64,000 bases of DNA, from contig NC_012029.1 of the NCBI RefSeq assembly GCF_000022205.1, positions 2,232,001-2,296,000 of the forward strand, read 5' to 3'. Shown in pieces: positions 39,017 through 39,357 of the stretch; position 1 is the first letter of the stretch, and every line of letters starts with the position of its first letter. Origin of the DNA: Halorubrum lacusprofundi ATCC 49239. GTDB taxonomy: Archaea > Halobacteriota > Halobacteria > Halobacteriales > Haloferacaceae. Made by a program: the position numbers and the translations under genes. Under the pieces are notes generated by a model. That model had not been told where the DNA came from, searched no databases, and worked only from the letters and a program-made list of their open reading frames with translations.

Positions 39017-39068
39017 GTCTCCATCCCGTGAGCCGACCCAGGGCTTCGGTCGGTCCATCGCGGGAGGT

Positions 39069-39074
39069 TTATAC
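39069..39074 (+). promoter_or_regulatory. TATA box of the candidate sRNA
   Basis: TTTATA in GAGGTTTATACCC, centred about 27 nt before the first base of the predicted RNA stem at 39099. No protein gene starts at that position. Confidence 0.5.
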
Positions 39075-39097
39075 CCGGTGACGGCCACGCTGCAGAC

Positions 39098-39163
39098 GGT
39101 GGCCATGACGACGTGTTACCCCCACTGAGCCCCTTGTGATGAGGGTTTTCCACCGAGCCACCA
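39098..39163 (+). ncRNA. Candidate box C/D guide sRNA
   Basis: A terminal stem GGTGGC (39099-39104) with GCCACC (39157-39162) encloses, in order: a box C-like ATGACGA (39106-39112), a 12-base guide, box D' CTGA (39125-39128), a 7-base spacer, box C' GTGATGA (39136-39142), a 10-base guide and a box D-like CCGA (39153-39156). C' and D' are canonical. The outer pair differs from consensus at one base each, and at positions that face each other in the kink-turn (U-U replaced by C-C). Length, guide length and promoter spacing fit archaeal C/D sRNAs that direct 2'-O-methylation. I could not assign a target. Confidence 0.5.
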
Positions 39164-39357
39164 CTTCGAGACCGCGAGCGGCAGCGCTTCCGGTTCACCG
39201 GGGTCGCGCGGCACGGACGATATCGCCCGATCCGACGAGACATGGTGGCATGGAACACGAGACGGTAGCACGTGACAATCCGTGGTGAAAGTAGACAATT
39301 GGCTCACCGTCGACTCGCAGTCCTGCGGTCTCGACGGGAAACGGGCGGGTCGGCGAC
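39164..39357. other. Intergenic remainder after the candidate sRNA
   Basis: About 190 bases between the candidate sRNA and the 3' end of the aldo/keto reductase gene. No gene is visible. Confidence 0.4.

Follow-up and report, generated by a model that had tools for sequence, protein, structure and literature searches.

The element of ∼65 nt at positions 39098–39162 on the plus strand is, judging from its sequence, very likely a box C/D sRNA of Halorubrum with counterparts in other archaea, whose role is to direct 2'-O-methylation to Gm1950 (Haloarcula numbering; E. coli 1909), a nucleotide of 23S rRNA helix 69. We assign it to this haloarchaeal guide because its guide pairs with helix 69, a Gm has been published at that site, a candidate was described in 2008, and the same guide is found in methanogens. 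The window, i.e. the whole stretch of 64,000 nucleotides that was analyzed, is part of C2, the largest replicon of a 3.69-Mb haloarchaeal genome. The element lies in an intergenic gap (39017–39357) flanked by two genes named by reading their ORFs, one on the plus strand resembling LLM-class oxidoreductases and one on the minus strand resembling aldo/keto reductases. The features of the element, together with its predicted target and partner genes elsewhere on C2, are as follows.

39069–39074, plus strand: TATA-like box TTTATA, putative promoter, read directly
39098–39162, plus strand: very probable box C/D guide sRNA, stem-to-stem element of ∼65 nt
39098–39103, plus strand: closing stem, 5' arm GGTGGC, read directly, with both-side changes in the class alignment
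39105–39111, plus strand: box C, ATGACGA, with C instead of U at position 5
39112–39124, plus strand: D' guide interval, 13 nt, with core GTTACCCCC at 39115–39123
39125–39128, plus strand: box D', CTGA, read directly
39129–39135, plus strand: D'–C' spacer GCCCCTT, 7 nt, strongly conserved in the class
39136–39142, plus strand: box C', GTGATGA, read directly
39143–39152, plus strand: D guide GGGTTTTCCA, 10 nt, differing among species
39153–39156, plus strand: box D, CCGA, with C at position 2, opposite C39109
39157–39162, plus strand: closing stem, 3' arm GCCACC, read directly
C2:24508–24516, own rRNA operon: predicted target site GGGGGUAAC in 23S helix 69, an exact 9-bp complement
C2:1035085–1035651, own genome: fibrillarin gene
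C2:1034546–1034965, own genome: Nop (Nop5) gene, adjoining the fibrillarin gene

Archaeal guides of this kind are ∼50–70 nt long, with consensus boxes C (RUGAUGA), D' (CUGA), C' (UGAUGA), and D (CUGA). All four boxes (C, D', C', and D) are present in the correct order, with C and D each showing one deviating base that is conserved in the class. The preliminary description of this DNA had given the box order, the closing stem, and the strand just as they are read directly in the sequence, and its 7-nt D'–C' spacer and 10-nt second guide agree with what we measured. The first guide interval, which it put at 12 nt, is actually 13 nt long (39112–39124). As it had also pointed out, the deviating bases of the outer boxes face each other, and we find C39109 and C39154 at position 3b.3n of the kink-turn.

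The target is indicated by the D' guide. In 104 of 112 parsed class sequences, it closes with GTTACCCCC and a single further base. This core is nearly invariant in the class, whereas the D guide varies freely. In Halorubrum, GTTACCCCC (39115–39123) pairs at 9/9 positions with GGGGGUAAC of the cell's own 23S helix 69, which is the longest Watson–Crick run of the guide within the own rRNA operon. In that operon, GGGGGTAAC has one exact occurrence, in the 23S rRNA, and its context, GGCGGGGGTAACTATGACCC, is helix 69. The pairing spans guide nucleotides 2–10 upstream of D', with guide nucleotide 1 unpaired, and at 9 bp it is on the short side of the usual range. The guide nucleotide in fifth position before D', C39120, is paired to C2:24511, the fourth G of GGGGGUAAC, which is six nucleotides before the U equivalent to Ψ1956. 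The 23S rRNA of Haloarcula marismortui, the only species for which this methylation is reported, carries a Gm at position 1950 (E. coli 1909), followed by pseudouridines at 1956 and 1958 (PMC2584109). Counting back from the U (1956) of ...GUAACU, the fourth G is 1950, and the fifth-nucleotide rule and the published Gm1950 (PMC2584109) thus pick the same G. The preliminary description had asked whether rRNA or tRNA contains a complement to the guide, modified at the nucleotide paired to 39120. An exact 9-bp match lies in helix 69, and the predicted site is the right one, since C39120 pairs with the G at the Gm1950 position.

Could the helix 69 match be secondary, the main target of the guide being elsewhere, for example 16S UGGGGUAAC or a tRNA? 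We consider this very unlikely. It is true that an 8-nt part of the guide (GGGGUAAC) is the Watson–Crick complement of 16S GUGGGGUAACGGC, and that some genomes have a further, related RNA that lacks one C (GGTTACCCC) and would put the 16S site in register. However, helix 69 offers one more base pair than the 16S site, the pairing there has the register of the known Gm, and there is no Gm among the listed 16S modifications of H. volcanii (PMC2584109).

Several related RNAs were noticed. The second C/D RNA, which has the same boxes and spacer and a guide that is shorter by one C (GGTTACCCC or a similar sequence), is found at four loci, L142–L145 (genomes G195, G207, G231, and G198), and a guide of this type would shift the helix 69 target by one nucleotide, or better fit 16S UGGGGUAAC. 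Two further C/D RNAs (L146 and L140) keep the GCCCC spacer and have a different or altered D' guide (ATCACCAACCTCT and GTATTTTGCCCCCGCA), and are possibly retargeted duplicates. Some Halorubrum genomes (L331 in G004, L332 in G017, L333 in G034, L334 in G021, and L102 in G050) have a partly degraded second copy in tandem, ∼110 nt downstream. In these pairs, the first copy has kept its guide with D' altered in most cases (CTAA, CTCGA, or CTTA), and the second copy has kept D', C', and D with its C box lost and CTATTAGTAGTTCTC or a close variant in its place.

For the D guide, no convincing target was found in the own rRNA or tRNA. Its longest complement to the own rRNA has a mean of 7.17 nt versus 6.92 nt after shuffling (best shuffle, 7.06 nt). 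The most shared rRNA sites are purine-rich, of the GGAGG type, because the guide is pyrimidine-rich, and the shuffles lose this shared make-up. tRNA targets were rejected, as the matches depend on G-U pairs. The D'–C' spacer reads GCCCC[TG]TG in 98 of 112 parsed class sequences and is thus conserved nearly as well as the boxes. Spacers of C/D RNAs are usually free in sequence. A search for a spacer target in the own rRNA gave best runs of 9 with G-U pairs included, which is not convincing. Since so conserved a C-rich spacer is superfluous for a plain methylation guide, we considered a regulatory or RNA-chaperone sRNA using the C/D fold without guiding methylation. This appears even less probable than a different main target, because guide sequence and register are an exact fit to the known Gm, and neither the spacer (searched in the own rRNA) nor the D guide (own rRNA and tRNA) yielded a second conserved target. 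Within a Gm1950 guide, the GCCCC spacer and the D guide may be structural or idle.

Conservation was the decisive test of whether the sRNA element is real, and it confirmed that it is. The box-order pattern combined with a 6-bp stem matches once in the window and not at all in 150 simulated windows that keep the dinucleotide make-up of the window. A DNA search with 39060–39200 matched 52/52 genomes of the genus, with a shared core (39098–39167) that coincides with the stem-to-stem element. We built a covariance model on 30 copies from the genus. It matched 242/242 genomes drawn from the class, representing 74/74 genera, and in the own genome it yielded a single strong match of 97.2 bits (next best, 18.8 bits, E = 0.7). 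Conservation in related genomes, whose absence the preliminary description had named as one of its refuting conditions, extends to every genome searched in the genus and the class. In the class alignment, which is fitted to the covariance model, 7/8 stem pairs have changed in both arms, 92.4% of stem cells are able to pair, and the covariation score of the stem is 0.283 (0.128 shuffled, and ≤0.055 in slid versions). The register of the stem arms is not in doubt, because they adjoin invariant boxes. Element lengths differ by single bases among copies. Although spurious open frames cross the element, the possibility that its boxes fell into this order by chance within a GC-rich gap between genes, or belong to a coding sequence, is refuted to a vanishingly small likelihood by the 242/242 class genomes, the compensatory stem changes, the single-base length variation, and the near-zero frequency of the pattern in simulation. 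No Rfam family was matched at the gathering threshold, and a permissive Rfam search gave only scores far under the cut-offs, including SNORD103 at 22 bits and sR1 at 14.7 bits. The predicted minimum free energy is unremarkable (z = −0.73), as expected of a C/D RNA.

The sRNA appears to have its own promoter, as had been proposed. In each of the 30 genus loci, a TTTAT box precedes the first stem base by 30–32 nt, and in 56 class loci the A+T content peaks at 0.65 (versus ∼0.3 around) at −26 to −30 from the stem. The strict TTTA[TAG] pattern occurs in only 4/56 of these loci, although the A+T peak is at the same place. From this position, transcription would start near the stem. In the haloarchaeal family f4 (L165–L167, L174, L178–L180, L192, L196, and L199 among its loci), a string like GCGACAGACCGAAA, ∼28–42 nt upstream of the stem, occupies the place of the Halorubrum TTTATA and is possibly another form of promoter. 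The aldo/keto reductase gene is nearby in 22/29 genus loci and in only 8/80 pattern-scan loci (some of them non-haloarchaeal). Considering the latter figure, a host-gene arrangement with aldo/keto reductase was rejected, and class-wide the sRNA gene keeps no single neighbour.

In box C/D RNPs, assembly begins with L7Ae on the kink-turn and continues with Nop5 and fibrillarin, the latter being the enzyme that methylates whichever target nucleotide pairs with the fifth guide position. The Halorubrum genome encodes both fibrillarin and Nop5. In the proposed mechanism, a TATA-type promoter of its own probably drives transcription of the sRNA, and the transcript would fold back on its 6-bp stem. 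L7Ae would bind the C/D kink-turn and the C'/D' kink-loop, allowing Nop5 and fibrillarin to assemble. Once the D' guide had paired with GGGGGUAAC in the nascent 23S rRNA, methylation by fibrillarin would fall on the G facing 39120, the fifth guide position before D'. Transcription, RNP assembly, and methylation in Halorubrum are what we infer from these sequences. The earlier reading of the element as a box C/D guide sRNA is thus upheld by conservation, compensatory stem changes, the helix 69 pairing, the published Gm, and the genes for fibrillarin and Nop5.

The kink-turn departs from the canonical form. U.U, the canonical 3b.3n pair, is absent in this sRNA, which has C.C instead. In haloarchaea, the outer 3b.3n is C.C in 93/112 distinct sequences, C.U in 9/112, U.U in 5/112, and something else in 5/112, with relatedness of the sequences inflating these counts. 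C.C facing in the kink-turn is the class-wide haloarchaeal state, whereas U.U occupies 3b.3n of both kink-turns in 11/11 non-haloarchaeal relatives. At the inner pair, a D' box of CCGA always goes with a C' of TGACGA (55/55), and CTGA goes with either form of C'. In the class alignment, the G-C pair after 3b.3n is invariant and the G.A/A.G positions are conserved. We regard C.C as marking a distinct type among box C/D RNAs and as no bar to membership. U.C at 3b.3n was seen in 0/112 sequences of the model-aligned set. A strict rule excluding U.C was nonetheless rejected, since in a looser named set L214 has an outer and L261 an inner U.C. The papers that we consulted do not mention a class-wide haloarchaeal C.C.

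Published work by the Lilley group gives this state a possible physical meaning. Archaeal box C/D kink-turns are mostly U.U and unfolded without L7Ae, whereas 3b = C or 3n = G (not both) lets kink-turns fold in metal ions alone, and a C:G closing pair favors such ion-induced folding (PMC4382518, PMC5689011). In the haloarchaeal RNA, 3b is C, and the closing pair is C:G in most members. Because 3b is C, these published rules predict that the C.C kink-turns of the haloarchaeal sRNA should fold in salt without protein, unlike those of standard box C/D RNAs. It is conceivable, though rather doubtful, that haloarchaea adapted RNP assembly to their multimolar-salt cytoplasm by switching their guides from U.U, as used by other archaea, to C.C (3b = C plus a C:G closing pair), with ion-induced folding independent of L7Ae. 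The same C.C letters would also arise, as may well be the case, if these GC-rich genomes simply drifted toward G+C. The class-wide C.C kink-turn offers a natural test of the ion-induced folding rules.

These findings extend a one-genome prediction of 2008 to a gene that is essentially universal in haloarchaea, with a precisely defined target and >100 aligned sequences, of a kind that no Rfam family catches. The helix 69 site is at the subunit interface, beside two pseudouridines. Haloarchaea have very few guided rRNA methylations, and since a single universal guide serves this site, a clean deletion test of the role of helix 69 methylation is possible. The haloarchaeal Gm1950 guide is ordinary biology, well identified and of modest novelty, and its interest rests on its universality in the class, its exact target, and its C.C kink-turn.

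The Gm1950 guide was already predicted in 2008, and the Halorubrum sRNA is a new member of this known kind of RNA. Grosjean et al. described a candidate C/D sRNA of Haloferax volcanii for Gm1934 (Gm1950) in 23S rRNA, reported homologues from 25 archaeal genomes, and noted that Halobacteria may use non-canonical sRNAs, degenerate boxes having to be allowed (PMC2584109). The H. volcanii guide shares RNA kind, target nucleotide, and organism group with the Halorubrum sRNA, which is almost certainly its orthologue, an identity drawn from target and guide logic. Pyrococcus sR41 was suggested for the equivalent of G1950 (PMC2584109), which likens it to the Halorubrum sRNA in its suggested target. 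In the own genome, the pre-tRNA-Trp intron is a box C/D guide too, but it is intron-encoded and has a tRNA target (Cm34 and Um39). By reading, this intron (L330, ∼position 1500) has apparent boxes GGACGA, CTGA, TGACGA, and CCGA, and its outer kink-turn is also C.C. A pattern scan of named genomes found the same guide, GTTACCCCC, in the same C-D'-C'-D layout at 11 methanogen loci (Methanoregula, Methanoculleus, Methanolobus, Methanocalculus, and Methanothermococcus), as expected from the 25 archaeal homologues (PMC2584109). These relatives differ from the haloarchaeal sRNA in their U.U kink-turns, in having no GCCCC spacer, and in D guides of another kind (e.g. GCAGGGGT in Methanomicrobia).
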